Shown here: positions 2 through 20,084 of the stretch, piece by piece
How positions within the stretch are numbered: position 1 is the first letter of the stretch
How the letters are laid out: every line of letters begins with the position of its first letter
IMG/VR virus record: IMGVR_UViG_3300017728_000141
Location: 1-21,075 of that record
Reading direction: 5' to 3' (one strand)
From: a virus
Length of the DNA stretch: 21,075 nt
Notes under the pieces: model-generated
Database searches by the model: none
The model's input: only the letters and a program-made list of their open reading frames with translations
What the model was told of the DNA's origin: nothing
Position numbers and translations under genes: made by a program

Positions 2-3000
2 ATTTCTGTTGTTGGTGGTAATAGTAGTGGTGCAACAGCAAAACCACAAATCTCCCAGAGATCTAGATCCATACCATTCGATACTAGACTCGATATTTAC
101 GGTGGTGGTATCAATCCAGATGGGGAGACTATTCTATTCCTAATAGAACATAAACTAGCCAAGGGCGATCCCATTATCTATGAAAATAATGAAAATGGAA
201 GTATTGGTATTAGTGACGCTGGTGGTGATAACACTTATGATTCCACTAGAACCCTATCTAATGGTGCTGTATACTATGCAGAACCTGTCAATAACCTAAC
301 GATCAAGATTTATGAGACCCTAGATGATTTGAATGCTGGAATCAACACTGTTGGATTCACTTCCTCTACTAGTGGTTTTGGTCTTCAAGATTTCACTACT
401 CTTCCTAAGAATCAACTTACTGGTGCTATCATTGATGATAGAGGTGGTGATTTTGTGTACCGTAAGATGGAGTTCCAACCTGGACATATCTATCCCGAGT
501 ATGATGAACTGAGATATGATTCTCATGGTTTCTCTAGTGGTGATATTGTTGAGTATGGAACCTTTGGTTCTGTTGTTGGTGGTCTATCCACTGAGAAGCG
601 TTATTATGTTGATGCTCTAGATGAAAACGTTATCAAACTATCTGACGCCGGTATTGGTGGAACAAGTAGGTTTGATTATGATAGAAAAGAATATGTTGCT
701 TTCACCAATTCTGGTGTTGGAACGCAGTTTATTAAGTATCCAGATATTAATGTTGATATTGTTGTATCTTTTGCTTCATCCATCACTGGAATTATTACAG
801 CAACACCTATCATTCGTGGTGGTATAATTCAAACCTATGTTGAGAGAGGTGGATACTATGGTTCTGATATTCTCAACTTTGCTAAGACACCTGAGGTAAC
901 AGTTCAGGTTGGTAAAGGTGCTAGAATCAAACCAGTTATTGTTAATGGTAAAGTTGTCACTGTTCAAATTTTGAACAAAGGTGTTGACTACCCAGACACA
1001 CCAACTCTTCGTGTTATTGATGAATCCGGTGAGGGTGCTGGTGCTCTTCTACGTCCAGTAGTTGTTGATGGTAAAATCCAAAAAGTTGTTATTATTACTA
1101 GTGGTGACAAATACGATCCACTCAATACTGATATTGTAGTAGTTGATCCTGCTAGACGTGCTATTCTTGTTCCTAGAATCAGACCACTCACAGTCAATAC
1201 CTTTGCTAGGTTTGGTTTTGAGGGTCTATCTAATAACGACTACTCTGTTGTTGCTTATGATAGAAAGATTCGTGAGGATGTATATGGTGACCTAGGTGGA
1301 TCACACTCACCTATTGTTGGTTGGGCAAATGATGGTAACCCCATCTATGGTGGTTTTGGTTATGATGATCCAGAGAACTCCAACTCTGGTTTCAGGGCAA
1401 TGAGAACTTCATATGAACTCTACCCTAACGAGATCTATGGTCGTCCCCCACTCACACTTTATCCCGCTGGGTTCTTTGTAGAAGACTACAAATTTACAGA
1501 TAATGGTGATCTAGATATTCACAATGGTAGATATGGTAGAACTCCAGAGTACCCTAATGGAATATATGCTTACTTTGCTGGTATTTCTACTGACGTACAG
1601 TCACTAGCTAGAGTACCTCAGTTCCCATACTTCATTGGTCCTCAGTTTAGGGATGGTGCAGGTATCGTAGACGATACAGTATCCCAAAATTATGATATCA
1701 ATAATGAGAAGGTTTTCCGTAATACTTTCCCATATGCCGTAGGTAACCCTATTATTGGTAGTGAGTTCTTAGATCAATCATACCTAGATGATGTTCAGGA
1801 TACTATTATCCAAACTATCAATAGTGGTACTGTTGATAACTTAACTATTGTTGGTGCTGGTGTTAGTTACTCTGTTGGAGATGTTGTTAATTTTGACGAT
1901 ACTTTTGACTACATTAGTGTAATTGTTGATCAAGTTAATGGTGAAGAAGTAACACAGATTGAAAGTGTTGTGGATAGTTATGGTAAGGGTGAAACCAAAC
2001 TTGTTAGATTGGATTCCGACACTGTTCGTGTATATGTTGATCCTTTCCATAACTATATTGACGGAGAGACAGTATCAATCAGTGGTCTAACAACCATCAC
2101 AGAGGAACTAAGCGGTAGTCATGAGATTGACTTCTCTATGCCTAGGATGACAATATCTTCCCCCCTAGCATATACTCCTTTTGAGACAGTATCTGATATC
2201 TTTGTTAATACTATTGTAGATGAGGTTTCTGTTGGTTCCAGCATCACTGTTGGTTTTGGTACTCTATCTGAGGGTATGGAAGTTATTAATATCTTCCCTA
2301 TCCAGAAAGCACTTCGTGTTAGGAGACCAGTAGGATACGCCTATACACACCCAATTGGAGATACCATTGTTATTTCTCCCAACTACTTTGATATCCAAGA
2401 GAGTGTAGACTTCTTCCCGTCCGAAGTTGATTTGCAATACTACTTCAACCCACATCAAACTGTGGCAGTTGGATTAGAAACTGGTGCAAGTGTTGGTTTG
2501 GTATTTTCTGTTGGTAATATCGATAAGAGTATCTCAGTACAGACCCAGAGGATATACGCTCCTTCACACTTCTTTAGAACTGGTGAAGAGATTACCTTTG
2601 AGAAGAATGATGTTGATGCAGCACTAGTTGTATCTGATGGTAACACTGTATACACACTACCTGGTGTTGGAAACACAGGCACTGCTTACGTTGTATCCCT
2701 ATCTAGAAATCATATTGGATTGAGAACTGATCCACGAGGTTCTGATTTATTCTTTTCCAATAACGGAACTGACTCTTTCCTATACTCCATCAAGACCAAT
2801 CGTTTTGCTGAGACTGCAATCGTAGATCGGACTAGAGTAGAAGTTTCAACGAAGACACAACATAGGTTAGAGGATACTGATGAGGTATTCATTAATGTTA
2901 TCTCTTCTGGTGCCTCAGGTGTAGGTACAAATCCAAATATTAAACTAGAGTTTGATGAGTCATCACAATCACTTATTGTTGACCCATACTTCATACAAAC

Positions 3001-6000
3001 TTCTGGTATTGATACTACAACCAACTTAATCCGTATTACAAATCACGGCTATATTGATGGCGATGTAGTATTATATCAAAATGAAGGAACTGCTGTAGGT
3101 GGTTTAACAACTCATCACAAATACTATACTATTCCTTTTGATCGGGATAAGTTCTATCTTGCTGAGACATTTATTGATGTAAGACCTACCTCCAGACTAC
3201 CTGTAGATCTAACTTCTGCTGGTATTGGTTCCCATAAGTTCTCCAAAGTTAATCCAGCACTCCTTATCACTAATAATAATGATATTGAGTTTGATGTATC
3301 ATCACCAACCCTATTTGGAAAAACCTTAGAGTTTTTCTATGACCAGACTCTAACTGAGGTATTTGAAAACAATAGTATTGACAGGGAATTCGTTGTTACT
3401 GGTGTATCTACTGAAGGTTATTCGGATGGTAGAAAGTCTATCAGGTACTCTGAAAATAACCCAGACGTATTCTTCTATGGTGTATCTGAAGGTGGTTATA
3501 TCTCCACAGCAGATGTTAACGTATCTAGACACAACTCCGTTAAGTATGAGGCTAGTAAGTTCTCTATCAAAGGTAATGTCACAATTATCGATAGTAACAC
3601 TTTTGCCTATACACTTAACGAGATTCCCGAAAGACCATCTTACACATCCGCTGATACAGAACTCTCATATGTAACTTCCTCAGAGACTGCTCTAGGTGGT
3701 GTTGGTGGATTGAATATCATCTTCAGTGGTGAGAACTTCCCCAGCCTACCTGATTTCGAAGGAGTTCAGTCTGAGTATGGTCAGAACGCAACTATCAGAG
3801 CAGAGTCTGATGACATTGGAACAGTTGCTTCTTATAGAATTCAGAACGCTGGTTGGGATTATTCCGCTGATAATACACTTAGACCATTTGGTGTTATTCA
3901 ACCAACTATCAAGTTTAGTGATAGTGACTTTGTTACTGACGTTATTATCCTTGATGGTGGTAATGGATATCAGAGTCCCCCTAATACAGTTCTAGTTGAC
4001 TCTGTAACAAGGGAAGTATCTGATAATGGATCTATTCTCCTAGAAGTACAATCATCCACCATCTCTAACGTTATTGTCGAGGTTGCCCCTTCTGGTGTAT
4101 CTAAGGATATTCAGGAACTATGGACTATCGATAATAGTAATGGTGTTCCTATTCTACTCATCGATACCATTGATAATATTTCTGGTGTTGTTACATATAC
4201 AGTACAAACTCCTATTGAGGGTTATGAAAACCCACCATTCGTGGTTGGTGATAGAGTATTTGTTGAAAATATTCTAATAGATCCTGGTGCTCCTGAATCT
4301 AAACTCAACTCCGCTGACTATGGATACAAGTTCTTAGAGGTTGTTAGAGTAACACCAACAAACCCAATTACTGTTGGTATTCAGTATCCCGAAGATGCTA
4401 TCAATAACCTAGGTTATGGTAATACTTTCCAGCAAGCATTCTCTGGTATCGTTAATGAGAAGATCTATCCCAAGTTTGCGGTACAACAAACAACTGCAGT
4501 TTTGATAGAAGGTGAGAGACTTTCCATCTTTGATTCTTTTGGTAATCTAGATGAGACTGACCTAGTTGTGGAAGAGTCCAACACTAGTTTCTTCAAGGTT
4601 ACTGGAAGTTATGACTTATTGGTAGGTGATGTACTCAAGGGTAACAATAGTGGTGTTATTCTAACCGTCACTAGTATTGATAGTAGTGGATGTAGGTATC
4701 AAGTTGATTCTATCTCCAGAATTAATACTGGTTGGAATGACAAAACAGGTTTCCTTAACGAGGAGACTCAGAACCTACCAGATAACGACTACTATCAAAA
4801 CCTTTCTTACTCCATTAAGAGTACAATTAACTTTGAGGAACTTATTAACCCAGTAAACAGACTAGTTCATCCAGCTGGTCTAAAGAACTTCTCTGATACT
4901 AAGATTGAGTCTTCTGGTGATGTTGGTGTTGGTATTGGTATTAGTGATACTGAGGGAACAATTACTATTGATCTCATTGGTCTAACCGATGTGGCACAAA
5001 CTCCACTAAGAGTTGATCGTATTAACGTATTTGACCTTGGTTGGGATGCCAACGTTAATAATAACAGATCTAATGCTATTAGATTACAGAGTAAAACTCC
5101 TAACAAGAGATTAACTGACTATATTGAAGTTCGTACTAACAGAGTATTGTTGCACGATGATATTAGTAATAAATTCATTGACGCCGACAACTCTGGAGAA
5201 CAGGATCCATACTCTGAATTTAACATTATCACTAGTGGATATACCAGAGCTCTACTTCAGGCAAGAAACCCCTTTACAGATCAAGTTCAATTTACTGAAA
5301 TTATTGTTCTATCAGTTAACAATGATGCGTTTACTCTAGAGAAAGCAACAGTATCTGACAATGATCTTGGTTATGGTATTTTTGATGGTAAGTCATTAGC
5401 AAGTAGTGAATATCAGATGAGATTCACTCCCTTTGATTTGGAAACATTCGATGCTGATCTAAAACTACTATCCCACAAGTTTATCTTCACGAATCAATCA
5501 CCTGCAGAAATTGGATATGTAAAACTAGCTGGTGATACTATATCTGCACCAGGTGCTTCTAGTACCCAAATATATGGAGCTAGTAACAGCAATAACAAGG
5601 CGGTTGTTATTCACACAAATGTAACAGTATCTAGTGGTCAAGTTTACTACTATGAGTTTTATGCCTTCACTAACGGTACTGATGTATATTATGCACCTTA
5701 TGGTTATAGTAGTGATGCAGTAACCGATTTCAGTGCTAATTTGGGTGGTGAATTTACTGCAACATTACGGAATGGTAAGTTAGCAGCATACTTTACCAAT
5801 AATACTGATACTGCTATATCACTTACTAATAAAACTATTGAGTATAAGCAAACTCCTACTGGAGATTCACCATTTAGGTTTAAGAAAGATAATGTTCCAG
5901 ATGACCAAGAAAGGAGCATTATTCTAGACACGGTATCTACAACTACTGTTAGTGATCAAGTAACAGAGGTATTCAGATATGATTCCACTCTATTCCAGAG

Positions 6001-9000
6001 TGTTAGATCTGTGGTGTTTATCTCTGGCACTGATTTTGGTGCTATTCATCAGGTAATGACTGTCAATAGTAATAGTTCTACTTATACTGAGGTATATCCC
6101 TTTATCACTGATGGTGATGAGGTAGATTCTACTTCTGGTATTGGTACCTTTGGTTCCTCAATGGATGGAGATGATATGGTCTTGGAGTTCTTCCCAGACT
6201 CTGCAATCCCAACTCAGGGAGTAACTATTACTGCCTATAATGAAACTTTCTACAGAATACTTGATACAGACAACTACACAGCTACTAGACCACTAAGGTA
6301 TTCTGCCAGTGAAGAGAATTACTACCTAGAAAGGTATATTGCTCCTCTAGGTCAGAGAAACAACCTACTTAGATTCCCCCTAACATATAAAGGAAACCCA
6401 ATTTATGAGAAGCAATTTGATCCAGAACAGGTAATCACATTAAGTGACGCCACATTTAATTTTAAAGATCACTTCTTTAGCCCAGCAGAGGAACTATATT
6501 ATCTACCAGATACAACTTTACCTGATGGTATTTCTTCTCCCATACAGATTCAACCAGTAGTCGATTATAGAGGTATTACTACCTCTACAATGCCAGACAG
6601 AGTATATGCTATCAAGAGAGATCTAAACAGATTACAACTGGCAGCAACTCCAGCTGATGCACTTGGTGCTAATGAAATTATTATCACTGGGTTTGGTAGT
6701 GGTATTGGTCATAGACTGGGTATGATGAAGAAACTGGAGAAGACTATAATCACCATTGATGGTGTCATACAAGCTCCCATCACAAACGCACTTAAGTCCT
6801 ATGTTCTAGACGCACCACTAGCTATTGATGATGAGTACGCAGTTCTAACTGGTATTGGTACTATTCGTGTTGGTGACCTATTGTTAGTCAACAAAGAGTT
6901 CCTCAAGATTGATAATATTGGTTTATCTACATCAGCAACTGGTCCCATTAGTAATACTGGTACTTTCCCTCTAATTCAAATTAGTAGGGGTGTTGTTGGT
7001 TCGGAAGCAACTCCTCACGCCAATGGCACTACACTTGACTTATATAGAGGTAGCTTCAATGTTGTTGAAAGTGATGTTGTATTCACTGAAGCACCATCTG
7101 GTCGTGGTTCAATCAACATTAACGAGTCTAACCTAGTTCAAGTTAACTCCTCATATCAAGGAAGAACCTTCTTACAAAGGGAGTATGATCAGATTGCACT
7201 ATTTGATGATATCAGTGATTTGTTCAATGGTATTGATTATAACTTCAACCTTACTTCCGCCGGTAGTACTATTGGTGAAGTTGAGAATGGATCTGGTGTT
7301 CTAACTATTAACGATATCTACCAAACTCCTACAACTGATAACAACGCAGGTAACAACTATTTCTATAGTTATGGAGCACAAACTGGTATCAATAGTGTAA
7401 CCTTTACTGGTATTACTTCTAGTAACGGACAACGGGTTGAGTCTATATTTGATATCAACCAGAACCAAATTCCTCGTGGTGGTGTTATTGTATCACTAGG
7501 TTCCACACCTGGTTTGGGATACGCACCACTATATGGAGCAAAAATAACTCCAGTAGTTACTGGTGGTGTTATTACTGATGTAGCCACAACCAATCAAATT
7601 GGAATTACAACTGATGTTCTCTGGGCTGATTATGATGAGACAACTGGTGACCTAGTTGTTTCTGGTATCGGTTCAGCACTAACCACAGAGTTCAACATCA
7701 CAGATGCTGACTATCGTAACACCTCCGGCATCCTAATCCTCACGAGCGCAACTTCTCTACTATCTACGGGTATCAACCCTGGTGATATCATGTATTTGAG
7801 AGGTATGAGTTTCTCTTGTACTTCTGGTGGAGCACCCGCTACACTAACATACCCAGACCAAGACCCAGTATATGCTGTGGATAGAGTTATAGATGAGTTT
7901 AGGTTCTCTGTGAACGCTGGACTATCCACTATTCCACATACTTATGTTTCTGGTGGTACTTGGCAGAAGTATTCAGCATTCCAGTTTGGACGGGAACAGA
8001 TTAATCCTAAACAGGTTTATCTAAATGGTTTGGAGTTTGATTGTACTAATAGTCCCTTTATCACTACTAATATTTTCCCTGATAATTTCGAGTCCGCATC
8101 TTTCGTTACTCGCGACGATGACGCACACTTTAGACTAAGCGTTGGTATTGCTAGTTTCTCACATGATTATGTGGGTGGAGGTACCTTCGGTCAGTATATC
8201 GAAAACAACCCTGGTTCTGGTTATTTGGAGAGAGTTTCTATAGCAGTTACTGATCCAAACCATAGTGGAACAGTCGCAGAGATTGTTGGTACCCCAATCG
8301 CTGGTGGTGAGTTATCATTCACTATTATTGATGGTGGTTCTGGATATAATCAACCAACTACTGATATCTCCGCACCTGATCCAGCATACTATAACCTCCC
8401 AATTAAGGGTATTTACAGAAGAGAGGTTGGTTTTACATCCGTCACTGGTAGGAACCTCTTCGTAACTGTTGAGGTATCCGCAGCAACCACAACTGCAATC
8501 GGTCGTAGTGAGTTCTTTGAAGTCAGTGGTTATCAGATTACTAACCAAGGTTATGGTTTCCAAGAAGGTGATGTCATTGAGGTTGTTGGTATTCCTACTG
8601 ATAAGAATCTATCACAACCTATAGAACCCTTTGAACTTACAGTTCTAGACACCTTCACTGATAACTTCTCCTCTTGGAACTTCGGTGAAACCGACTATAT
8701 TGATAGTATCAAGACGTTGCAGGACGGGTCGAGAGTTACTTTCCCACTCGCATACAAGGGTGAAGATTTATCCTTCGAATCAAATCCTTCTGATGAAAAT
8801 TCTGCGGCAATTGATTTAGATGCTATCCTACTCATCTATCTGAATAGTGTTCTACAGGTTCCTGGAGTAAGTTACGAATTCACTGGAGGTAATACATTTA
8901 CATTCGTAGCACCACCGTTCCCACAGGACGATATTGATATCTACTTCTACCGAGGTAAGAGGAATATTGATAGTATCGTGGTTACCGAAGTTGATGAGTC

Positions 9001-10231
9001 TATCAGACCTGGAGATCAATTACAACTTGTTAAAAATAACAAGTATAACGATAACAACACTGTGGATTTGACTAAGACACAGGATCTCAGAACGGTTACC
9101 GAAATTGCTTCTTCTGATACAGTTAGAACGAACCTTTACTTTGGTAACAACGATCTAGAAACTATAAAAGAAAGACAAGTCGGTTGGGAAAAACAGAAGA
9201 GAGACATCTTCCTCTATGGTGAACCCGCACCTAAGACGAGAGATAGTTTGGAACCTGTTATTGTACCAACAGCGGCGATCATAAGAGACGCCTCCAAGAC
9301 AGAAACTGAGATATTCATCAGTAACTCTGAAATCTTCCTTTATGAGGAACGTGTTCCTGGTTCTAGTATTGTCTTAACTAATATTAGTGGTGAGATCTTT
9401 AGACCGATTCAGTATAAGTATGACCCACAAGTACCATTCGAACCCGCGACACTTCGCGCGAATGTTAATAACAATGGCCAAGTATCTTCAATCACTATTG
9501 TAGAATCAGGTCAGGGTTATCCATCAAGTACTGAAATTACTGTTGGTGTTTCTTCTACCGGTGATAGAGCAGAGATTGGTACTGTTATCTTCAACCCAAT
9601 TGATGGATCTATCATTTCCACTATCCTCACCAAACCTGGATCTGGTTATGATCAAAGTAATCCACCATTTGTTCTCATTGAAGAACCACAGGTGGACATT
9701 GAACCTTTGGAACTTATTCCAAATATACAAGGTTTCAGTGGTATTGTTACTGGTATTCAGGCAACTACAGGTTCCTCTGGGGCAACCAAGGGTATCAGGG
9801 TATTCTACACAGTGGAAGCCGACATTGTTGCTTCTGAACTAAACGCAGGTTACTCTGTTGTTCTATCTGGAACTCCAGTTGGTAACGGTGTTGAGACTAT
9901 TGGAAGTAACGCGGCAAGTGTAGTTGGTTTTGGAACACAGTTCTTAGACGCAGTTTATGAAGTTAGGACGAATGTTGTATTGGGTCGTAACGGTTTCTGG
10001 GAAGCAAACGTAACAAACGGAACTAACATATCTGGTATCGATATTGTCGGTGGTAACCTCGGAGGTTTCAACTGGGGTAGGTTATCAAATCTAGCAAGGG
10101 ATCCAGACTTAGCACTTTCCTATAACGTGGATGGAAATACATACTCACCTAATATGGATAACTACCCAACTCTTAAGAGGAGTAGTGAAGGTCTCCGTAA
10201 CGAAGGTGGTATCGCTAAGAAGGTTCTGTAG
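2..10231 (+). CDS. Giant modular structural protein with YHYH domain (5'-truncated by window), probable baseplate/tail component
   Basis: The frame is open from base 2 to the TAG at 10229-10231, giving 3409 visible residues; the true start lies upstream, and a TTG at 329 is only an internal codon. Visible order: a repeated H-GD-Y module (near residues 50-110, 166-230, 855-915, 1000-1085), GxGY modules (near 272-393, 1276-1333, 2737-2863, 3155-3230), a YHYH-type domain (about 430-547), an NFKDHFF...EELYYLP segment (about 2152-2172), an RGV-H-GT module (about 2275-2364) and two 61-residue repeats (2597-2657, 2672-2732). I counted only about three cysteines, and saw no membrane segment or signal peptide. 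It lies directly upstream of gp8, where T4 has gene 7, but I see no gp7 similarity. Role inferred: large baseplate-wedge or fibre-like virion protein. A similar giant gene beside gp8 is typical of T4-like cyanophages. The structural role is likely; the exact place in the virion is unknown. Confidence 0.85.
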   Translation: MSVVGGNSSGATAKPQISQRSRSIPFDTRLDIYGGGINPDGETILFLIEHKLAKGDPIIYENNENGSIGISDAGGDNTYDSTRTLSNGAVYYAEPVNNLTIKIYETLDDLNAGINTVGFTSSTSGFGLQDFTTLPKNQLTGAIIDDRGGDFVYRKMEFQPGHIYPEYDELRYDSHGFSSGDIVEYGTFGSVVGGLSTEKRYYVDALDENVIKLSDAGIGGTSRFDYDRKEYVAFTNSGVGTQFIKYPDINVDIVVSFASSITGIITATPIIRGGIIQTYVERGGYYGSDILNFAKTPEVTVQVGKGARIKPVIVNGKVVTVQILNKGVDYPDTPTLRVIDESGEGAGALLRPVVVDGKIQKVVIITSGDKYDPLNTDIVVVDPARRAILVPRIRPLTVNTFARFGFEGLSNNDYSVVAYDRKIREDVYGDLGGSHSPIVGWANDGNPIYGGFGYDDPENSNSGFRAMRTSYELYPNEIYGRPPLTLYPAGFFVEDYKFTDNGDLDIHNGRYGRTPEYPNGIYAYFAGISTDVQSLARVPQFPYFIGPQFRDGAGIVDDTVSQNYDINNEKVFRNTFPYAVGNPIIGSEFLDQSYLDDVQDTIIQTINSGTVDNLTIVGAGVSYSVGDVVNFDDTFDYISVIVDQVNGEEVTQIESVVDSYGKGETKLVRLDSDTVRVYVDPFHNYIDGETVSISGLTTITEELSGSHEIDFSMPRMTISSPLAYTPFETVSDIFVNTIVDEVSVGSSITVGFGTLSEGMEVINIFPIQKALRVRRPVGYAYTHPIGDTIVISPNYFDIQESVDFFPSEVDLQYYFNPHQTVAVGLETGASVGLVFSVGNIDKSISVQTQRIYAPSHFFRTGEEITFEKNDVDAALVVSDGNTVYTLPGVGNTGTAYVVSLSRNHIGLRTDPRGSDLFFSNNGTDSFLYSIKTNRFAETAIVDRTRVEVSTKTQHRLEDTDEVFINVISSGASGVGTNPNIKLEFDESSQSLIVDPYFIQTSGIDTTTNLIRITNHGYIDGDVVLYQNEGTAVGGLTTHHKYYTIPFDRDKFYLAETFIDVRPTSRLPVDLTSAGIGSHKFSKVNPALLITNNNDIEFDVSSPTLFGKTLEFFYDQTLTEVFENNSIDREFVVTGVSTEGYSDGRKSIRYSENNPDVFFYGVSEGGYISTADVNVSRHNSVKYEASKFSIKGNVTIIDSNTFAYTLNEIPERPSYTSADTELSYVTSSETALGGVGGLNIIFSGENFPSLPDFEGVQSEYGQNATIRAESDDIGTVASYRIQNAGWDYSADNTLRPFGVIQPTIKFSDSDFVTDVIILDGGNGYQSPPNTVLVDSVTREVSDNGSILLEVQSSTISNVIVEVAPSGVSKDIQELWTIDNSNGVPILLIDTIDNISGVVTYTVQTPIEGYENPPFVVGDRVFVENILIDPGAPESKLNSADYGYKFLEVVRVTPTNPITVGIQYPEDAINNLGYGNTFQQAFSGIVNEKIYPKFAVQQTTAVLIEGERLSIFDSFGNLDETDLVVEESNTSFFKVTGSYDLLVGDVLKGNNSGVILTVTSIDSSGCRYQVDSISRINTGWNDKTGFLNEETQNLPDNDYYQNLSYSIKSTINFEELINPVNRLVHPAGLKNFSDTKIESSGDVGVGIGISDTEGTITIDLIGLTDVAQTPLRVDRINVFDLGWDANVNNNRSNAIRLQSKTPNKRLTDYIEVRTNRVLLHDDISNKFIDADNSGEQDPYSEFNIITSGYTRALLQARNPFTDQVQFTEIIVLSVNNDAFTLEKATVSDNDLGYGIFDGKSLASSEYQMRFTPFDLETFDADLKLLSHKFIFTNQSPAEIGYVKLAGDTISAPGASSTQIYGASNSNNKAVVIHTNVTVSSGQVYYYEFYAFTNGTDVYYAPYGYSSDAVTDFSANLGGEFTATLRNGKLAAYFTNNTDTAISLTNKTIEYKQTPTGDSPFRFKKDNVPDDQERSIILDTVSTTTVSDQVTEVFRYDSTLFQSVRSVVFISGTDFGAIHQVMTVNSNSSTYTEVYPFITDGDEVDSTSGIGTFGSSMDGDDMVLEFFPDSAIPTQGVTITAYNETFYRILDTDNYTATRPLRYSASEENYYLERYIAPLGQRNNLLRFPLTYKGNPIYEKQFDPEQVITLSDATFNFKDHFFSPAEELYYLPDTTLPDGISSPIQIQPVVDYRGITTSTMPDRVYAIKRDLNRLQLAATPADALGANEIIITGFGSGIGHRLGMMKKLEKTIITIDGVIQAPITNALKSYVLDAPLAIDDEYAVLTGIGTIRVGDLLLVNKEFLKIDNIGLSTSATGPISNTGTFPLIQISRGVVGSEATPHANGTTLDLYRGSFNVVESDVVFTEAPSGRGSININESNLVQVNSSYQGRTFLQREYDQIALFDDISDLFNGIDYNFNLTSAGSTIGEVENGSGVLTINDIYQTPTTDNNAGNNYFYSYGAQTGINSVTFTGITSSNGQRVESIFDINQNQIPRGGVIVSLGSTPGLGYAPLYGAKITPVVTGGVITDVATTNQIGITTDVLWADYDETTGDLVVSGIGSALTTEFNITDADYRNTSGILILTSATSLLSTGINPGDIMYLRGMSFSCTSGGAPATLTYPDQDPVYAVDRVIDEFRFSVNAGLSTIPHTYVSGGTWQKYSAFQFGREQINPKQVYLNGLEFDCTNSPFITTNIFPDNFESASFVTRDDDAHFRLSVGIASFSHDYVGGGTFGQYIENNPGSGYLERVSIAVTDPNHSGTVAEIVGTPIAGGELSFTIIDGGSGYNQPTTDISAPDPAYYNLPIKGIYRREVGFTSVTGRNLFVTVEVSAATTTAIGRSEFFEVSGYQITNQGYGFQEGDVIEVVGIPTDKNLSQPIEPFELTVLDTFTDNFSSWNFGETDYIDSIKTLQDGSRVTFPLAYKGEDLSFESNPSDENSAAIDLDAILLIYLNSVLQVPGVSYEFTGGNTFTFVAPPFPQDDIDIYFYRGKRNIDSIVVTEVDESIRPGDQLQLVKNNKYNDNNTVDLTKTQDLRTVTEIASSDTVRTNLYFGNNDLETIKERQVGWEKQKRDIFLYGEPAPKTRDSLEPVIVPTAAIIRDASKTETEIFISNSEIFLYEERVPGSSIVLTNISGEIFRPIQYKYDPQVPFEPATLRANVNNNGQVSSITIVESGQGYPSSTEITVGVSSTGDRAEIGTVIFNPIDGSIISTILTKPGSGYDQSNPPFVLIEEPQVDIEPLELIPNIQGFSGIVTGIQATTGSSGATKGIRVFYTVEADIVASELNAGYSVVLSGTPVGNGVETIGSNAASVVGFGTQFLDAVYEVRTNVVLGRNGFWEANVTNGTNISGIDIVGGNLGGFNWGRLSNLARDPDLALSYNVDGNTYSPNMDNYPTLKRSSEGLRNEGGIAKKVL
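497..690 (+). repeat. H-GD-Y module, copy with VGGL
   Basis: This encodes HGFSSGDIVEYGTF, then VVGGLSTEKRYYVDALDENV and IKLSDAGIGG. The pattern is H-G-x3-GD-x-V-x-Y, then VGGL, then YY, then a hydrophobic L-[SA] strand and AGIG. The copy at 3040-3230 (HGYIDGDVVLY, AVGGLTTHHKYY, AGIG) is clearly homologous. More divergent copies are at about 149-330 (HKLAKGDPIIY, VYYAEPVNN), 2565-2745 (HFFRTGEEITF, AYVVSLSRNHIGL) and 6460-6660 (HFFSPAEELYY, VYAIKRDLNRLQLA). Confidence 0.7.
815..1180 (+). repeat. GxGY-type beta module, tandem copies in the giant protein
   Basis: Three successive units are seen: TYVERGGYYGSD, VQILNKGVDYPDTPTLRV and VVIITSGDKYDPLNTDIVV. They are separated by GARIKPVIVNGKV and GAGALLRPVVVDGKI. 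Each unit is a hydrophobic strand, then G-x2-Y, then a Pro-containing turn. The same unit recurs at 3828-4000, 8210-8590, 9466-9690, in gp8 and in the DUF4815 protein. Confidence 0.7.
1291..1640 (+). other. YHYH-type domain within the giant protein
   Basis: The translation reads SPIVGWANDGNPIYGGFGY, then after about 55 residues DLDIHNGRYGRTPEYPNGIY, then PQFPYFIG. Order and spacing match the YHYH protein family (DG-x-PIYG, then NGR..TPEYP.G.Y.Y, then FPY.IG). The family's function is not established; it is found in secreted bacterial proteins and in marine phage structural proteins. The H of the namesake motif is replaced in the NGIYAYF stretch (Y-A-Y rather than Y-H-Y), so any metal-binding role may be lost here. 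Confidence 0.75.
3001..3255 (+). repeat. H-GD-Y module, second VGGL copy
   Basis: This encodes NHGYIDGDVVLYQNEGTAVG and GLTTHHKYYTIPFDRDKF, then LTSAGIGSHKF. It aligns with the copy at 497-690 over the H-G, GD-x-V, VGGL, YY and AGIG positions. It probably forms a small beta domain reused along the polypeptide; the fold is inferred. Confidence 0.7.
3828..4000 (+). repeat. GxGY-type beta module
   Basis: This encodes SYRIQNAGWDYSADNTL followed by VTDVIILDGGNGYQSPPNTV. The second half is a near-canonical GxGY unit: strand, DGGNGY, then a double-Pro turn. Confidence 0.65.
7790..8197 (+). repeat. Two 61-residue repeats in the giant protein
   Basis: Copy 1 is 7790-7972 and copy 2 is 8015-8197, both exactly 61 codons. 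Aligned without gaps they share YL at 2-3, G at 5, F at 8, C-T at 10-11, PD at 22-23, H at 50, Y-V at 52-53, GGT at 55-57 and Y at 61. They start MYLRGMSFSCT and VYLNGLEFDCT and end HTYVSGGTWQKY and HDYVGGGTFGQY. The middle third has diverged. Two of the few cysteines of this protein lie at the same repeat position. Confidence 0.75.
8210..8590 (+). repeat. GxGY-type beta modules
   Basis: Successive units NPGSGYLERVSIAV, LSFTIIDGGSGYNQPTTDI and GYQITNQGYGFQEGDVIEVV belong to the same family as those at 815-1180. They follow directly on the 61-residue repeats. Confidence 0.65.
9466..9690 (+). repeat. GxGY-type beta modules near the giant protein C-terminus
   Basis: Two units, SSITIVESGQGYPSSTEITV and ISTILTKPGSGYDQSNPPFV, are separated by DRAEIGTVIFNPIDGS. 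The spacing of about 40 residues between the GxGY motifs is like that of the pair in gp8 (about 45 residues) and of the first cluster. Confidence 0.7.
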
Positions 10232-10236
10232 GTTGT

Positions 10237-10244
10237 TATAAATA
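10237..10244 (+). promoter_or_regulatory. T4-type late promoter upstream of gp8
   Basis: The box TATAAATA is identical to the T4 late promoter consensus and begins 5 bases after the stop codon of the giant gene. It ends 38 bases before the gp8 ATG. T4 late promoters need no -35 element; they use gp55-type sigma, gp33 and the sliding clamp. Transcription would start a few bases downstream, inside the hairpin described next. Confidence 0.75.
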
Positions 10245-10270
10245 GGGTTTAGGTACTGTATCCTAAATCC
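10245..10270 (+). other. Inverted repeat / hairpin between late promoter and gp8
   Basis: The arms GGGTTTAGG (10245-10253) and CCTAAATCC (10262-10270) pair over 9 positions with one G-U pair and an 8-base loop. There is no T-run after it, so it is not a classical intrinsic terminator. It could weakly end the transcript from the giant gene or fold at the start of the gp8 mRNA. Its role is unknown. Confidence 0.5.
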
Positions 10271-10282
10271 TGCTTATACACA

Positions 10283-11827
10283 ATGTCTGCTCTAATCACG
10301 GATGATTTTAGGCTGTTTAATGCCGACAATTTCATCGAATCTGTAACCGATCCTAATAACTCATATTATATCTTCATAGGTCTCCCCAACCCAGTTGGTC
10401 AGACATATGGTAGATCTACTAATTGGAATAACGATCCACCACAACCTATTGATAACTTCTCATACATCCGTCATTGTTATGACACTATGATGTATGGGAG
10501 AAGAGTAACGCCTGGAAATATCAAACGAGTGATACGTCGTATTAACTGGGTCAAAGGAACCAGGTACGATCAGTATCGCGATGATTACAGTGTAAATAAT
10601 GTTTCACCCAATACTGGTTCTACTCGGTTATACGATGCCAACTATTATGTTATTAATAGTGAGTTTAAAGTATACATTTGTTTAAGTAATGGATCTAATG
10701 GAAATAACCCCAAGGGTGCTGGATCTGAGGATGAACCTAACTTTATAGATACCGAACCATCAGCAGCTGGTTCTAGTGGTGATGGATACATTTGGAAGTA
10801 TTTGTTTACAGTATCTCCTTCCGACGTTATCAAGTTCGACAGTACTGATTTTATTACTGTACCCAATGATTGGGATACAACAGATAACTCACAGATTGTT
10901 GCTATTAGAGAAAGTGGTGATTCTATCATCAACGATAGCCAACTAAAACAAATCTATGTTGAAAACCAAGGTGTAGGATACGCTGGTGGAGTAGGACAGG
11001 AGTTACCTATTATTGGTGATGGAGAGGGTGCTAGAGCTATTATTGATGTAAACTCTGGTCGTATTACTAACGCCATTATCGCTAAGGGTGGTAAAGGATA
11101 CAGTTGGGGTCTAGTTGACCTTGGTACTATTAACCAGAGTGCAACACAGGCAGCTAAGTTGGATGTTATTATCCCACCCTCAAGAGGACATGGTTTTGAT
11201 ATCTATCAAGAACTAGGTACTGATAGAGTTCTAGTATATGCTCGTTTTGATGACTCTACAAACGACTTCCCTATTGATACTCAGTTTGCTCAGATTGGTT
11301 TACTTAGAAACCCAACACTAAACGGTTCTAACCAGACATTTACCGAGAATACTTTCACAGCTTGTGATTCACTTAAGATGTTATCATTTAGTGGTGACGT
11401 AGAAGTTGGGGATGTTGTATTCCAGAATACTTCAGAAGGAACTGCTAGGGGATATATTGTTTCCTTTGATAAAGAAACAAAAGTCCTGAAGTATATCCAA
11501 GATAGGTCACTATCTTATAACCCTGTCACATACGACAATACTGACTATGTTGGTATTACAACCAGTGGTAGGAAGTTTTCTTTTGAATCCAATGTGAATC
11601 CAGTTACCACAGACACTGGTTTCTTAGCTACCGTTGATACAACCTTCAATGGTTCTACAGAAACAGTAGGTTCTAAATCAGTAGAACTTGGTGTGGAGTT
11701 CACAAATGGAGTTGCAGTATCGGAGATAAATAGACAGAGTGGTCAGATACTTTACTTGGATAATAGACCAGTAGTACCAAGGAATCCACGACAAAAAGAA
11801 GACGTTAAGATCATCTTGGAATTTTAG
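10283..11827 (+). CDS. gp8: Baseplate wedge protein gp8 (T4 gp8 family), enlarged
   Basis: This is a structural subunit of the baseplate wedge, which in T4 contains gp8 with gp6, gp7, gp10, gp11, gp25 and gp53. Similarity to T4 gp8 is recognisable along the chain: the N-terminal FR..NADNF...PNNSYYIFIG (residues 9-33), RRINWVKGTRYDQYRDDY (about 83-101), SGDGYIWKYLF (about 165-175), and the C-terminal GQILYLDNRPV...KIILEF, matching T4's GEMIYMENRPP...NILFTF. At 514 residues it is much longer than T4 gp8 (334); the extra length is in the middle and includes two GxGY modules (about 222-275). The ATG follows a late promoter and hairpin; no Shine-Dalgarno sequence is visible. The stop TAG is followed at once by an in-frame TAA, and the next gene starts 3 bases after the TAG. 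The family call is firm; the inserted part has no T4 counterpart. Confidence 0.9.
   Translation: MSALITDDFRLFNADNFIESVTDPNNSYYIFIGLPNPVGQTYGRSTNWNNDPPQPIDNFSYIRHCYDTMMYGRRVTPGNIKRVIRRINWVKGTRYDQYRDDYSVNNVSPNTGSTRLYDANYYVINSEFKVYICLSNGSNGNNPKGAGSEDEPNFIDTEPSAAGSSGDGYIWKYLFTVSPSDVIKFDSTDFITVPNDWDTTDNSQIVAIRESGDSIINDSQLKQIYVENQGVGYAGGVGQELPIIGDGEGARAIIDVNSGRITNAIIAKGGKGYSWGLVDLGTINQSATQAAKLDVIIPPSRGHGFDIYQELGTDRVLVYARFDDSTNDFPIDTQFAQIGLLRNPTLNGSNQTFTENTFTACDSLKMLSFSGDVEVGDVVFQNTSEGTARGYIVSFDKETKVLKYIQDRSLSYNPVTYDNTDYVGITTSGRKFSFESNVNPVTTDTGFLATVDTTFNGSTETVGSKSVELGVEFTNGVAVSEINRQSGQILYLDNRPVVPRNPRQKEDVKIILEF
10948..11120 (+). repeat. GxGY module pair inserted in gp8
   Basis: This encodes QIYVENQGVGYAGGVGQELP, then GARAIIDVNSGRITNAIIAK and GGKGYSWG. 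The G-A-R-A then strand then GxGY arrangement is the same as at 815-1180 in the giant protein. T4 gp8 has no such stretch. Confidence 0.7.
11725..11732 (+). promoter_or_regulatory. Possible weak late promoter inside gp8
   Basis: GATAAATA differs from the late box TATAAATA at the first base only and lies 98 bases before the ATG of the DUF4815 gene. It is also simply the codons for Glu-Ile-Asn-Arg, so chance is quite possible. The 3-base gap between the two genes suggests they are mainly co-transcribed. Confidence 0.25.
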
Positions 11828-11830
11828 TAA

Positions 11831-14800
11831 ATGTCTCAGATTAACCTAGATACCAGCCCATACTTTGACGATTTCGATCCGTCAAAGGATTACTATAAAG
11901 TGCTCTTTAAGCCAGGTTTTCCTGTTCAGGCAAGAGAACTCACTACTCTGCAATCTGTTCTACAGAATCAGGTTAGTAGCTTTGGACAACACCTCTTCAA
12001 AGAGGGATCCATGGTTATACCTGGTAGCATTACATATAATCCCAATTACCAATCTGTTGTTCTAAACCAACAACAGGGTGGTGTTAATGTTTCCTTTTAC
12101 ACCGAAGAACTAGTTGGTAAGGTTATTGAAGGTAAGAATAGTGGAGTTACCGCAAAGGTTATCGACTTCTTACTACCACCAGCTGAGGGTGTAACCACTC
12201 CAACGATATTTGTTTCATATATCAGTAGTGGTTCTGACGAAACGACAAGTGTTTTTGATGATAATGAGGAGTTAATTTCTACTTCTGATATCGTATACGG
12301 TAACACTACTATCACCACTGGAACAGTATTTGCTAGTACTATTTCAAATGAATCCACAGCAACAGGTTCTGCTGCCCAGATTAGGGATGGTATTTATTTT
12401 ATACGTGGGTTCTTCACTCAGGTTCGTGAGAGTGTTGTAATTCTAGACGCGTTTGATAATACTCCCTCATACCGAGTTGGTCTTCAGATCACAGAGAAGG
12501 TTATTACTGCTGGTCAAGATAACTCATTATATGATAATGCTAAGGGTTTCAACAACTTCTCAGCACCAGGTGCCGATAGACTAAAAATATCTACAAAACT
12601 CATTAAGAAACCACTTGATGATTATAATGATACCAATTTCGTAGAATTGCTACGCATTGATACTGGAGAGACTAAAAAGATAGCTGTTAATAGTGATCTT
12701 AATATCATTAAGGATTACTTGGCACAGAGAACCTATGAGGAATCTGGTAACTATACCTTATTTGGTATGGGTATTAAACTTGCCGAGTCATTGAGTGATA
12801 ACCTAGGTAATGGTGGTGTATATCAGTTTAACCAGACAACAGCAGATGGTCAAGTACCTACTGACGATCTAGCTGTAGTAAAAGTTTCTTCTGGTAAGGC
12901 ATATGTTCGTGGGTATGACATCAATAACCCTGGGACTGTTAATTTAGATGCCAACAAACCCAGAACAACAGCTAATGTTGAGTCAACATCCTTCCCCTTT
13001 GAGATGGGAAGTAAGTTCTTCATCAATAACGTCAAAGGAACTCCTGTCATTGGTTTGGCTGTTAACGATAATATCGTTCAGTTGTATAATGGTCGCCTAG
13101 ACTCCTCAGGAAACTCCACAGGAGACCTTATTGGTGAGTCTCGTGTATATTCCTATTCTTTGGAAGACGGACCCTATACAGGTGATTCTACACCTTGGGA
13201 ACTATATCTGTATGATACCCAAATCTTTACCAAACTAACTCTAAACGTAGATGCTACTGGTAAGATTCTAACCTCATATAAAGTGAAAGGTCTTAGTAGT
13301 AACGCTACTGGTTATGTTCGTTCTATTAGTAATAAGGATATAGTTCTAACTCAGGTATCTGGTGAGTTTGTAAGGAACGAGGCTATTTCTGTTAATGGTA
13401 GAGTAGAAAACTCCTTCAGTGTATCATCTCTTGAGAGCTACAGAAACAATGATGTTAGATGTATCACTCAAGCAAGTTCTTCACTAGACCCTAATATTCA
13501 ATTTGACTTTAGTGCTGATACTCTTCAGTATTCTAGTGTTCCAACTGGATTCACAGCCTCAGATTCAGTGTCAATTACTACTGGTGGTGTAGTTAAGTGT
13601 CCTGGAAGATTCTTTAATGCTTTCAGAATTGGTGATATTGTTGGTTATCAGAAATCTGGTAGTGAACTCATTACACTTAATAAGGTAACAGCAATCAATG
13701 CTGCTGAGACTAACATGACTGTTAGTGCAATTGCAAGTGTTACTGGTGTTTGTGATGGTACTCGACCAACATCAACAACTAGATCTCGTATTAGATTATA
13801 CAGCTCCAGAATTCTCAATCAGGAAAACTCCCATCTATACGCAGCTTTAGAAGAGAGGAATGTTTCCAGTGTTGATTTGGCATCATCAAACCTTAAGTTT
13901 GTTAAACAGATTAACAACTTATCTACTGATGCTAATGGTTTTCTAACTGTAAATGAATCTGCACTAGATGTAACAGGTGCAACATTCGAAGCATTTGATC
14001 AGGAAAGATATAGCATTCATTATGCTGATGGAACCACACAAACTATTAGATCCAATCAGGTTGTTATTACAGGATCTAGAGCTGAATTTTCCAATCTACT
14101 ACCCAGTCAGACAACCAATGTAACACTTAACTGTACTGCCATTAAGTCGGGTATTAAGTCAAAAACTAAGGTTTTGGTTAGGTCTGAAAAATTAGAAGTT
14201 AATAGGGCGTCTAGTGGCATTTCAACTACAGCTCAAGGTCTGGAGAGAAGTGAATACTATGGTATGAGAATTGATGATGAGGAAATCTCAATCAACGTAT
14301 CAGATGTAACTAATGTTGTTGCAGTATATGAATCACTAGACTCTGGAACTGCGACACTAGATACTCTAACATTTGTTAATGGTCTAGACTTAGACATTAG
14401 AGTTGTAGTTGGAGAAAATATAAAAGGTAGTACCAGTGAATCTATTGCTAGGGTTGTCTCAGTACCATCACCAGCATCAATAGAAATTGTATACCTCACT
14501 GAAACAACTTTCGAAGTTGGTGAGACAATTACATTTATAGAGTCTAAAGTTGAAGCCAACCTCCAGGCTATTACACAAGGTAACTACAGTAATATTACAA
14601 GTAGATATTCACTTGATAAAGGACAAAGAGAACAGTTCTATGACTACTCCCGTATAGTCAGGAAAAGGAACGCCAAAGCACCTAATAAGAGATTACTAAT
14701 AATCTATGATAGATTTGCTGTACCAATTAATGATAAAGGTGACTTCTACACTGCCAATAGTTACACAGAGGAAGACTTCGGTCCGAGTGTTCCTATGTTG

Positions 14801-17800
14801 TCTGATGGAACCCTGCGCGCTTCTGATACCTTAGATTTCAGACCCAGAGTAGCCAGATTTACTTCAATAAACTCCTCACCATTTGACTATACTTCTCGTG
14901 ACTTTGGTGACAACGGCAATACTGTTGTTCTAGTAACAAAACCAAATGAGAGTATGGTTCTAGGTTATGATTTCTATGTTGGGAGAAGGGATCGTGTTGT
15001 ATTAAATTCCGATGGTGGATATTCTATCCTTGAGGGTACTCCAGCCAAGTTCCCAACACTACCTAGCATTACTGACAATGTGATGGAGCTCGCCCAGCTA
15101 AATTACCCACCATATCTTTATAATATCGAAGACGTTCAAGTCACTCTGGTTGATAATAGACGTTATACGATGAGAGATATCGGTAAGTTGGAAGACCGTA
15201 TCGAAAACTTAGAAGAAGTTACCTCACTTTCACTATTGGAGAGGGAGACTGAATCACTACAGGTCCTAGATGAGGATGGTAATGATAGATTCAAATCTGG
15301 TTTCTTTGCTGATGACTTCAATACCACAGATTTCATTGACAATGATTATGAAGATACAAACATTGATGTTGAACCTTCCAGTTCCCAACTAGTTACTAGA
15401 CAACTCTTCGCTACTATTCCACTAAGACCACAACTGTCTGCAAGACTTGACGAAAACGCAGTAGACTTCAATGATAACTTGCCGTTATCAGATGGTAATT
15501 TGAGAATGAATGGTGGTTTAGTTACATTGGGATTTAATGAAGTTCCTTGGATTAATCAACCTCTAGCATCCAAAACAGAGAATGTCAACCCATTCAATGT
15601 TATTCTATTTAATGGAGCTATTACACTAAATCCTGCTTCTGATGAGTTTGTTACTACTAGGCAAATACCTGGTAATACTAGAAATGTTAATGTATTTGGT
15701 GATGGTGACAGTTCTAGTTTTGATAGGACATTTGTTGCAAGTACAGATGATGCACAGTGGATGCGGGCTCGTAATGTTGGGTTCCATGCTCATGATGTTA
15801 AACCCTTCACAGAGTTTTATCCATTCTTAGATGGAACTTCTGGTGTGGATATTGTACCCAAACTAGTTGAAATATCAATGCTCCACAGTTCTTTCATTGT
15901 TGGTGAAAGAATAATTTCCCAAACGAGGAGAATCAGTTTTGCAGCTAGATTGGCTGCACCTAATCATAAGGAAGGTAATTTCCGCAATCCAACTAGAAGG
16001 TTTACCGCAAACCCATATAATAGAAACCAATTGTTACCTGGTGCATACTCCGCATCATCTACAGTTCTCAATATTGATCTCAACTCCTTAGCAGACATTG
16101 GGGATGAACGTTTCTTTGGTTTTGTTGAACCAGGACTCAGACTAGTTGGACAATCTAGTGGTGCTATTGCTGTAGTTAGCCGAGTTAGGTTAATTGCTGA
16201 TACATTCTCTGAACTATATGGTGCTTTCTGGTTTAGAGATCCATTCTCAACCCCAACACCTTCGTTTAGACTCGCTACTGGTGTTAGAACATTCCGTTTG
16301 ACATCTAGTAGAACTAACGCCCCCTCGGTACTTGGTCAAACAGCGGTATCTTTCGCAGATGCTAACTTCCAATCCAGTGGTTTGATTCAAAATAGACAAA
16401 CTGATACCACAATAACAACAGTTAGACCTCTACCTCCGGTACCGGCACCAATCATAATCCGACCACCTGCACCGATAACTGTCGTTAACGTTACCGAAAC
16501 AACAGTTATTAATATTACCGAAGTAGTACAACCGCCCGAGCCACCACGACGTTCCTTCTGGGATTTCTTCCCTAGGGATCCATTGGCACAAACATTCCGT
16601 GTTGACGAGACTGGTGCATTCTTGACCAGTGTTGACCTGTATATGGCTAAGAAGTCTAATACTGATAACTTAATTGTTCAGATTAGAACTACAGAGTTAG
16701 GTACTCCAACGGAAGTTATTCTTCAGGATTATGCAGAAGTTATCCTATCACCAGATGCGGTTAATGTATCATCTGATGCAACTGCCGTAACTAAAGTTAA
16801 TTTTGAATCACCAATTTTCCTAGAAGCTGGTGTGACTTACGCTCTTGTATTACTTGCTCCAACCACTGATGACTATGAAGCGTTTATCGCTGTTATGGGT
16901 GAGGAGAACCTCGCTGGTGATATCGATCCCAACTTGAATCTAAATCAAGGTGCTGACGCTCCACCAGTTAATCTTCCAGGAACTGCTATTATCTCCCAAC
17001 AGTATCTTGGTGGTTCACTATTCAAGTCACAGAATGGTAGTATCTGGACCCCAACTCAATTCGAGGACCTAAAGTTCAAACTAAACAAGGCAGAGTTCAC
17101 TGGAAATCCAGGCACACTATATCTCAGTAATCCAGGACTAAGGGATAGTTCAATACTACCATTTGATCCTATTGAGACATTACCTAGAAGACTCAAGGTA
17201 CCTGTAACCTCTAATACTTACCCCTTCAGTCAAGGTGATATTATTAGTTCTGTTGGATCTGGTGCCACTAATACCGCTTTGGTAACTGGTGACTTGGGTG
17301 CTGTGGGTGGTCCTATAACAACACTCGATCTTACTGATCCTGGTGTTGGTTTCATTGATGGATCATATACTGGAGTTGAAGTATATCCAATCACAAGTTC
17401 TGGATCGGGTGCTGAACTAGATGTTACTGTTTCTGGTAATGTTATTACAGCAGCGACAGTAACTACTGGTGGTTCTGGATATAGAATTGGAGATACCGTT
17501 GGTATTACAACCGCTGATGTTGGTGCTGCTGGTGGTGACTCCATACTAACTATTGACGCTATTGGTGACACAGACACACTATTCCTCACTAACGTACAGG
17601 GTGAGAAAATGGTTTTGACCGAGAGTATTAAAGTACTCGATACCGTTACTGAAACTCTAAGAAGTACTGGTGTGAACATAACAGAGGAATCTGAGGTTCT
17701 AGACCCAATGTATGATGGTAGTGTTTTTATCGCAAACATTCCTAGTCATGGTATGGAAGCAGATAATAATCTGTTATCTATTTCTAATATCGCACCAGAT

Positions 17801-19293: not shown

Positions 19294-19827
19294 ATGGCAA
19301 GTGCCTACGTATCAAATATAACTATTGATCAGGGTGCTGACTTTTCTGCTAATTTCAAACTAGATGATGCAGGAACAGCTGTTCCCATCAATCTAACTAG
19401 ATTTACCGCATACGGGCAACTTAGGAAACATCCTACTGCCCCTTTTGGTGTGCAGTTTGATATTAAGATCGCCAAACCAAAAACTGGTGAAATTATTATC
19501 GAGTTAAACTCAGCACAGACCTCAGCTTTAGATGAGGGTCGTTATGTATATGATGTATATCTCAAAAGCACCACGAACGGCAAAGTGTATCGTGTTGTGG
19601 AGGGAATGGCACTAGTTAACCCCGGTGTAACAGACATGCAAACTGGAATTATCCCACCTTCATACCCACCCGTCGCTATCGGACCAACTCCACCAACAGA
19701 TCCTATCGAAGGAAATCTCTGGTGGAACTCTGAAGATGGACGTATGTATATCTACTATATTGATGATGACTCAGCACAATGGGTCCAGACCAATCCAAGT
19801 AGTAAAGACACAGAGAGGACTAACTGA
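19294..19827 (+). CDS. Small structural protein with Ig-like/BppU-N-like domain and WWNSEDG tail
   Basis: The protein has 177 residues. Residues about 5-112 read ITIDQGADFSANFKLDDAG, then INLTRFTAYGQLRKHPTA, then LDEGRYVYDVYL and RVVEGMALVNPGVT. This is the pattern of small beta-sandwich domains at the N-terminus of phage upper-baseplate and fibre proteins: d-x-G, L-T-x-[FY]-T-A, L-x-x-G-R-Y-x-Y-D, V-x-x-G-x-x-x-V-x-P-x-V-T. After a Pro-rich link (PPSYPPVAIGPTPPTDP) comes GNLWWNSEDGRMYIYYIDDD and SAQWVQ, a short motif often seen in marine phage fibre proteins. It is the first gene after a late promoter; its stop overlaps the next ATG (TGATG). Virion decoration or fibre role inferred; the place in the particle is unknown. 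Confidence 0.75.
   Translation: MASAYVSNITIDQGADFSANFKLDDAGTAVPINLTRFTAYGQLRKHPTAPFGVQFDIKIAKPKTGEIIIELNSAQTSALDEGRYVYDVYLKSTTNGKVYRVVEGMALVNPGVTDMQTGIIPPSYPPVAIGPTPPTDPIEGNLWWNSEDGRMYIYYIDDDSAQWVQTNPSSKDTERTN
19814..19818 (+). promoter_or_regulatory. Shine-Dalgarno site for the 85-codon gene
   Basis: AGAGG (part of AGAGAGGA) lies 8 bases before the ATG at 19827, a good spacing. It is the only convincing ribosome binding site I find for a gene in this window and supports that start inside the TGATG overlap. Confidence 0.55.
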
Positions 19828-20084
19828 TGGCAAACTTACTCGATCAAATCGGTCAGAGAAATGTTGTTAGAGTAGTATCTCAGGGTGTTCCTGCAACACT
19901 ATCTGGACTTTCAGATACAGACTTTAGTGGTATTGGTACTGGAATGGTACCAGTATGGGACGGTGATGCATTCACCCCAATAGTAGGAGGCGCTAACCAG
20001 AGTGTTTCTAATATCATCTTAACGACAAACCCAGTCACACATGCAACTGCGTGGACTGATACTATTGATGGTGGATTCTTCTAA
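19827..20084 (+). CDS. Small conserved phage protein, possible fibre/neck accessory
   Basis: The protein has 85 residues. The central LSGLSDTDFSGIGTGMVPVW and DGDAFTPI resemble the widespread tail-fibre motif L-[ST]-D-x-[DT]...G...G-x-[VL]-x-V-[WY]-x-x-x-x-x-[FW]-x-P, which usually forms a small repeat in phage fibres. The N-terminus (MANLLDQIGQRNVVRVVSQG) is hydrophilic, with no signal peptide. Both ends overlap neighbours by one base (TGATG and TAATG), so it is probably made together with the 177-residue protein and gp13. I do not know a specific function; a structural role is inferred from motif and context. Confidence 0.75.
   Translation: MANLLDQIGQRNVVRVVSQGVPATLSGLSDTDFSGIGTGMVPVWDGDAFTPIVGGANQSVSNIILTTNPVTHATAWTDTIDGGFF

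Follow-up and report, generated by a model that had tools for sequence, protein, structure and literature searches.

A GxGY beta module shared by adjacent virion proteins of a Synechococcus phage, probably related to domain I of the sheath protein gp18 of T4

Our analysis of a 21-kb stretch of viral DNA (21,075 nucleotides, the entire IMG/VR record IMGVR_UViG_3300017728_000141, hereafter the window) revealed that three adjacent genes carry one homologous beta module with GxGY turns. The genes encode a giant baseplate wedge protein, the baseplate wedge protein gp8 and a DUF4815 (VrlC-like) virion protein. The window comes from the genome of a Synechococcus phage that is a relative of ACG-2014f; across gp8 and the gene after it, nucleotide identity is about 81%. 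The reading that we favour on balance is that the module is a promiscuous virion surface barrel, distantly related to gp18 domain I in the T4 tail sheath and to domain D3* of the tailspike Dpo31, which was inserted separately into many virion proteins and acts as a docking knob, with host capture as an added or alternative role.

A module shared by three virion proteins

Each unit of the module comprises about 40 residues and runs from a Gly-x-Ile start through a strand, the GxGY turn, a second strand and a GxGA segment to a third strand. Two such units make up one pair, which corresponds to a domain of about 80-90 residues, and the columns conserved across positions are the Gly and Tyr of the turns. 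Pairs of GxG[YF] motifs with a spacing of 35-55 residues were counted per protein and compared with shuffled sequences. One pair was seen in gp8, two in the giant protein and one in the DUF4815 protein, where shuffles expect 0.004-0.044 per protein (P of 0.0036, 0.0012 and 0.008, respectively), that is, pairs are about 45 to 260 times commoner than in shuffled sequences. Up to 80 related contigs then supplied the orthologs for a family profile of each copy, and these profiles were run against the three proteins and against shuffled and reversed decoys. The profile of the DUF4815 copy retrieved gp8 with 28.5 bits (E 2e-10), those of the giant-protein pairs gA and gF retrieved gp8 with 23.0 and 15.4 bits, and that of gE retrieved gF with 20.3 bits, whereas the best decoy reached 9.2 bits and most stayed below 4.5 bits. 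A chance Gly-rich motif was ruled out by the decoys and shuffles. The sharing of the module among gp8, the DUF4815 protein and the giant protein is real, and by their profile scores the giant-protein copies would belong to the same family. This bears out the central claim of a sequence-only reading of the window, namely that one homologous module occurs in three proteins with unrelated cores, and the profile comparison proposed there as a check gave mutual retrieval above the decoys.

With a combined profile five copies in the window (gA, gE, gF and those in gp8 and the DUF4815 protein) scored 46-65 bits and a sixth (gC) 34 bits (Table 1). The giant protein carries four pairs and several weaker single units, in agreement with the repetition noted before; its copy number varies, with a median of 5 and a maximum of 8. 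Orthologous stretches of the degenerate copy that opens a tandem in this protein score about 55 bits in other phages (e.g. L067:1121-1405). The motif pairs had been placed correctly in the sequence-only reading: the one at 10948-11120 falls inside the gp8 envelope, and the one at 17310-17575 corresponds to the DUF4815 envelope at 17249-17563. Further GxG[YF] motifs at 1352 (in the YHYH region), 10778 and 11186 were rejected as modules.

Structures were predicted with AlphaFold2, the C-terminus of the giant protein and gp8 being modelled as one joined chain in which the stop codons separating their genes were read through to serve as a linker. In the models of gp8 and the DUF4815 protein the module has predicted local distance difference test (pLDDT) values of about 90-97 and the same order of six strands. 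These lie at 550-555, 566-572, 575-584, 587-598, 603-605 and 619-623 in the gp8 model (minus 327 for gp8 numbering) and at 270-277, 285-294, 303-309, 312-320, 330-333 and 346-352 in the DUF4815 model (plus 1559 for protein numbering). The module is predicted to be an autonomous domain that forms a six-stranded beta structure. Structure prediction of the copies, the other check that had been proposed, succeeded for gp8 and the DUF4815 protein, which share the strand order and the match to one solved domain, and yielded an unreliable model for the giant-protein copy. Foldseek also matched the DUF4815 model to 8jov_1 of phage GP4, a match that VIA places at model residues 430-540, in a domain other than the module, and matches to eIF2-gamma over model residues 228-398 were taken as a common barrel arrangement.

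The statement that T4 gp8 lacks the module also holds, since it gives no profile match and aligns around the insertion. The gp8 model superimposes on T4 gp8 (1n7z) with Z 20.4 over 276 of 328 residues, and the T4 gp8 fold surrounds the inserted pair.

Relationship to T4 gp18 domain I and to Dpo31

Both models match domain I of T4 gp18 (3foa). The gp8 model aligns to gp18 residues 99-185 (Z 5.5, root-mean-square deviation (rmsd) 3.0, 71 residues) and the DUF4815 model to residues 99-188 (Z 4.6-4.7, rmsd 3.3, 76-77 residues), with the alignment tool warning that Z below 8 can mean a common arrangement. Since these structural scores are low, sequence was tested separately. A profile built from gp8 copies only ranked gp18 domain I first among 130 T4 open reading frames (ORFs), with 12.7 bits against 3.8 for the next (1000 shuffles of gp18 reached 8.1 bits), and a profile from all non-sheath copies gave 17.0 bits against 2.8, the best of 1000 shuffles reaching 9.0 bits. 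Conversely, of 58 module copies 3 are matched by the Pfam model Gp18_dom_I, the best with E 1.2e-5; its best match outside T4 is to gp7 of the Stenotrophomonas phages IME-SM1 and Ps15 (E 2.6e-6, 24.7 bits), and the DUF4815 copy of ACG-2014f scores 15.9 bits. The window proteins gave no match to this model (PF22639) at E 1, and hhalign of the module alignment against an alignment of T4-type domain I, a template with a number of effective sequences (Neff) of 1.9, gave an uninformative P of 0.022. We regard homology between the module and gp18 domain I as highly probable.

Domain I (residues 98-188) resembles the module in its size and its insertion into a larger virion protein; it has GSNY and GKNY turns 40 residues apart, profiles retrieve both ways, and the two predicted structures align to it with the low Z values given above. 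It reads ISTPGSNYAVGDKITV ... DGKIKKINIPTGKNY, and appears to be a worn, degenerate version of the module unit. Unlike the copies described here it is located in the sheath, is degenerate and occurs once per sheath subunit rather than several times per protein. In T4, domain I has been described as a six-stranded barrel that is inserted in domain II, protrudes outward, makes no inter-subunit sheath contacts, and binds the baseplate in the extended sheath as well as the retracted long fibres; the mutations G106S, S175F and A178V within it inhibit fibre retraction (PMC3004832). We checked this numbering against the T4 sequence and found that it fits gp18 without the initiator Met. G106 is the first Gly of the GxGY motif, which is G-S-N-Y in T4 gp18. 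The T4 case shows that a domain of this type is able to dock fibres and baseplate and that the glycine of the motif is important.

The best match of the module profile among solved structures was the marine tailspike Dpo31 at residues 431-505 (E 3.5e-6 for the chain; best stretch 442-505 with an independent E-value of 5.1e-5, and a further weak stretch from 431). The match overlaps D3* (434-536; PDB 8ck1, 28lx), a domain that is inserted into the tailspike and stands out from its beta-helix (PMC13317679). The module appears to be distantly homologous to D3*, with which it shares the inserted, protruding situation; D3* differs in that it sits in the beta-helix depolymerase of a podovirus and is described as immunoglobulin (Ig)-like, and the likeness is drawn here from the profile match. 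Ig-like folds are a known case of beta domains that have spread promiscuously among phage virion proteins (PMC9230969). The module resembles them in being a small beta domain that occurs in numerous virion proteins, probably at the surface; it differs in being an internal two-half repeat with GxGY turns. No Ig-family Pfam model was among the matches of 58 module copies at E 0.1, a search that a remote Ig-like fold could escape.

Occurrence and history of the copies

The module is not confined to the three adjacent genes. The window being the entire source record, the copies in neck and fibre proteins are known from ACG-2014f. A profile search of that whole genome identified the module in the giant protein, gp8, the DUF4815 protein, the neck protein gp14 (three units), a tail fibre and a protein of 3973 amino acids (aa), with a weak match in a hub protein. 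All copies found there are in ORFs annotated as virion proteins except for the 3973-aa ORF, which adjoins baseplate genes. Other T4-like phages encode it in gp8 (233 of the 240 gp8 proteins gathered) and gp7, and the Stenotrophomonas phages Ps15 and IME-SM1 have a strong copy in the tail sheath gp18 (about aa 236-322, 58-61 bits), at a later position in the chain than that of T4 domain I. The VrlC/DUF4815 proteins of P-HM1, phiM12 and Ps15 are without the module and that of S-H34 carries it, thus its presence varies by position and lineage. Module members match 22 PHROG families, and searches of the module copies against Pfam and NCBIfam gave no family that covers the module in general. Outside phages, large and apparently extracellular bacterial proteins contain 1 to 18 copies, several with signal-like N-termini, among them a Prosthecobacter protein with 18 copies (L264:3181-12306) and a Planctomycetales protein with 14 (L269:133-9327), both of more than 3000 aa. 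As a side observation, gp8 of IME-SM1 is annotated as two short ORFs (L088:14075-15498); in relatives, Ps15 among them, it is a single complete gene, and the split suggests that the record or the gene contains a frameshift.

A tree of 141 copies from five positions in related phages resolved the positions as five clean clades (support 0.88-0.99). For all 141 copies the nearest neighbour was the same position in another phage, and copies within one genome were no more alike than copies from different genomes (e.g. 27.4% against 26.6% identity between the DUF4815 and gp8 copies). These results imply that the copies parted before these phages diverged, with no sign of trading since, and the proposal that neighbouring baseplate genes exchange the module was not borne out.

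Other features of the window

The coordinates of all features are listed in Table 1. In ACG-2014f the gene of the giant protein lies between gp6 and gp8, which is the position of gp7, and its counterpart in P-HM1 is annotated gp7. The giant protein also contains a YHYH domain (PF14240, E 5.4e-22) at 1301-1585 (aa 434-528), a stretch that matches several virion PHROGs as well.

Two further domains flank the module of the DUF4815 protein. A PHR-like domain precedes it (16571-17056, aa ~1581-1742) and aligns closely to a baseplate protein of Staphylococcus phage phi812 (9euj_G; Z 12.0, rmsd 2.3, 109 residues, 33% identity). The domain that follows (17795-18061, aa ~1989-2077) has structural alignments with phage GP4 (a 116-aa protein), a VP1 capsid chain, the JBD30 baseplate and the LKA1 tailspike (Z 8.6-10.0) and is another recurrent virion beta domain. 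Within gp13, positions 20459-20560 encode a low-complexity Gly-rich stretch, GGGGVGYPNLIGSDGGLAGGCGGGGFGGLAGMG, which is not the module.

Table 1. Module copies and genes in the window.
Feature	Position	Strand	Evidence
Giant baseplate wedge protein, C-terminal 3409 aa	2-10231, open at start	+	ORF, phrog_2885 baseplate wedge
Degenerate copy opening a tandem, giant protein	695-916	+	3.1 bits
Module pair gA, giant protein	917-1147	+	46.5 bits; 54.5 bits in another profile search
Single module unit gB, giant protein	1802-1903	+	7.7 bits, weak
Module pair gC, giant protein	3779-4021	+	34.2 bits
Weaker single unit, giant protein	near 7532-7594	+	profile search
Module pair gE, giant protein	8141-8419	+	50.4 bits; 56.3 bits in another profile search
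Weaker single unit, giant protein	near 8483-8590	+	profile search
Module pair gF, giant protein	9425-9733	+	64.6 bits; 61.6 bits in another profile search
gp8 baseplate wedge protein	10283-11827	+	Pfam PF09215, E 4.2e-13
Module pair inserted in gp8, aa 207-291	10901-11155	+	56.4 bits
DUF4815 / VrlC-like virion protein	11831-19042	+	PF16075, E 6.5e-58; phrog_358
Module pair inserted in DUF4815 protein, aa 1807-1911	17249-17563	+	52.7 bits
Tail-fibre-assembly-like protein	19294-19827		ORF and family matches
gp13	20084-20974		ORF and family matches

Possible functions of the module

Over a long time the module would have been inserted separately into loops or tails of T4-like virion proteins such as gp7, gp8, DUF4815/VrlC proteins, gp14, gp18 and fibres. 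The copies most likely project outward from the virion, and the surface location suggested earlier is plausible. The GxGY loops may then dock other virion parts, such as folded fibres and appendages, to the tail as in T4 gp18 domain I, and capture of host surface material might be an added or alternative role. That docking is the main function in this phage is a possibility to which we give somewhat less than even weight. A general role in binding the three proteins to one another, which had also been suggested, is disfavoured because neck and baseplate copies could not touch.

Several points weigh against this reading as a whole. The structural Z values to gp18 domain I (4.6-5.5) are low and come from a small domain. 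No module copy outside T4 reaches the curated PF22639 cut-off of 27 bits, and because of these scores we regard the module as a distant homologue and not as a member of that family. The gF model, from the giant C-terminus, has pLDDT of about 30-57, though gp8 in the same joint model folded well. Some direct profile comparisons are weak (gp8 profile to the DUF4815 protein 10.7 bits, to the giant protein 9.6 bits). The authors of the Dpo31 study describe D3* as Ig-like and distantly like sugar-binding domains, with a DALI Z of 2.9 (PMC13317679). No cyanophage interaction partner of the module is known, and tandem copies in bacterial proteins fit general adhesion as well as docking.

With regard to the origin of the copies, convergence of Gly-rich beta repeats without homology would agree with a motif that is short and rich in Gly and with some single pairwise profile scores near background. 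We consider it hardly credible, given that cross-retrieval beats shuffles and reversals with alignments spanning the whole module, and that two independent models share strand order and structural match. Exchange among neighbouring baseplate genes seems very unlikely to us; copying within a genome in the distant past may have taken place. It would account for the three adjacent genes and for the real matches between copies, but the tree and the identity comparison speak against it for the lineages sampled, and non-adjacent genes carry the module too.

The strongest competitor to docking concerns function: the module might be a carbohydrate-binding or general adhesion domain for host surface polysaccharide with no role within the virion. 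This would suit D3*, which is believed to lie close to the depolymerase site and distantly resembles sugar-binding domains (PMC13317679), the up to 18 tandem copies in large, secreted-looking bacterial proteins, and the adhesive role proposed for other added sheath domains (PMC9230969). We nevertheless hold it to be the less likely explanation, as T4 domain I has a genetically defined fibre-holding role (PMC3004832), the likeness of Dpo31 to sugar-binding domains reaches only the Z value given above, and the alignment showed no conserved site for sugar binding, conservation being seen in the Gly and Tyr columns of the turns. We think it improbable that the module is a filler, serving passively as a spacer or stabiliser by which virion proteins are made longer or more rigid. 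The variable copy number in the giant protein and the missing inter-subunit contacts of T4 domain I (PMC3004832) would be in line with a filler, but neither the turn residues, which are conserved from one position to another, nor the T4 mutants impaired in fibre retraction (PMC3004832) fit this view.

Implications for T4-like phages

In the titles and abstracts of the open-licence literature searched, neither the motif itself nor the module as an insertion in cyanophage gp7 or gp8 is described, and, within the parts of that literature that were covered, no family was found that joins T4 gp18 domain I, gp7, gp8, gp14, DUF4815 and a tailspike domain. With our results, the recurrent repeats of some of the largest virion proteins in abundant marine phages, left unnamed by Pfam and NCBIfam, acquire a family identity and a function that can be tested. 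The results also suggest that a module outside the Ig family can spread through phage virions as promiscuously as Ig-like domains do. Through the link to a T4 domain for which mutants and a crystal structure exist, ideas on fibre retraction in T4 become applicable to the baseplates of cyanophages. We would put forward, tentatively and as the less likely outcome, that a large unnamed family of GxGY barrels forms a common docking surface on the neck, sheath, baseplate and fibres of T4-like phages, with gp18 domain I of T4 as its degenerate outlier, and that in cyanophages arrays of knobs on the giant gp7 could arrange fibres or appendages around the entire tail.

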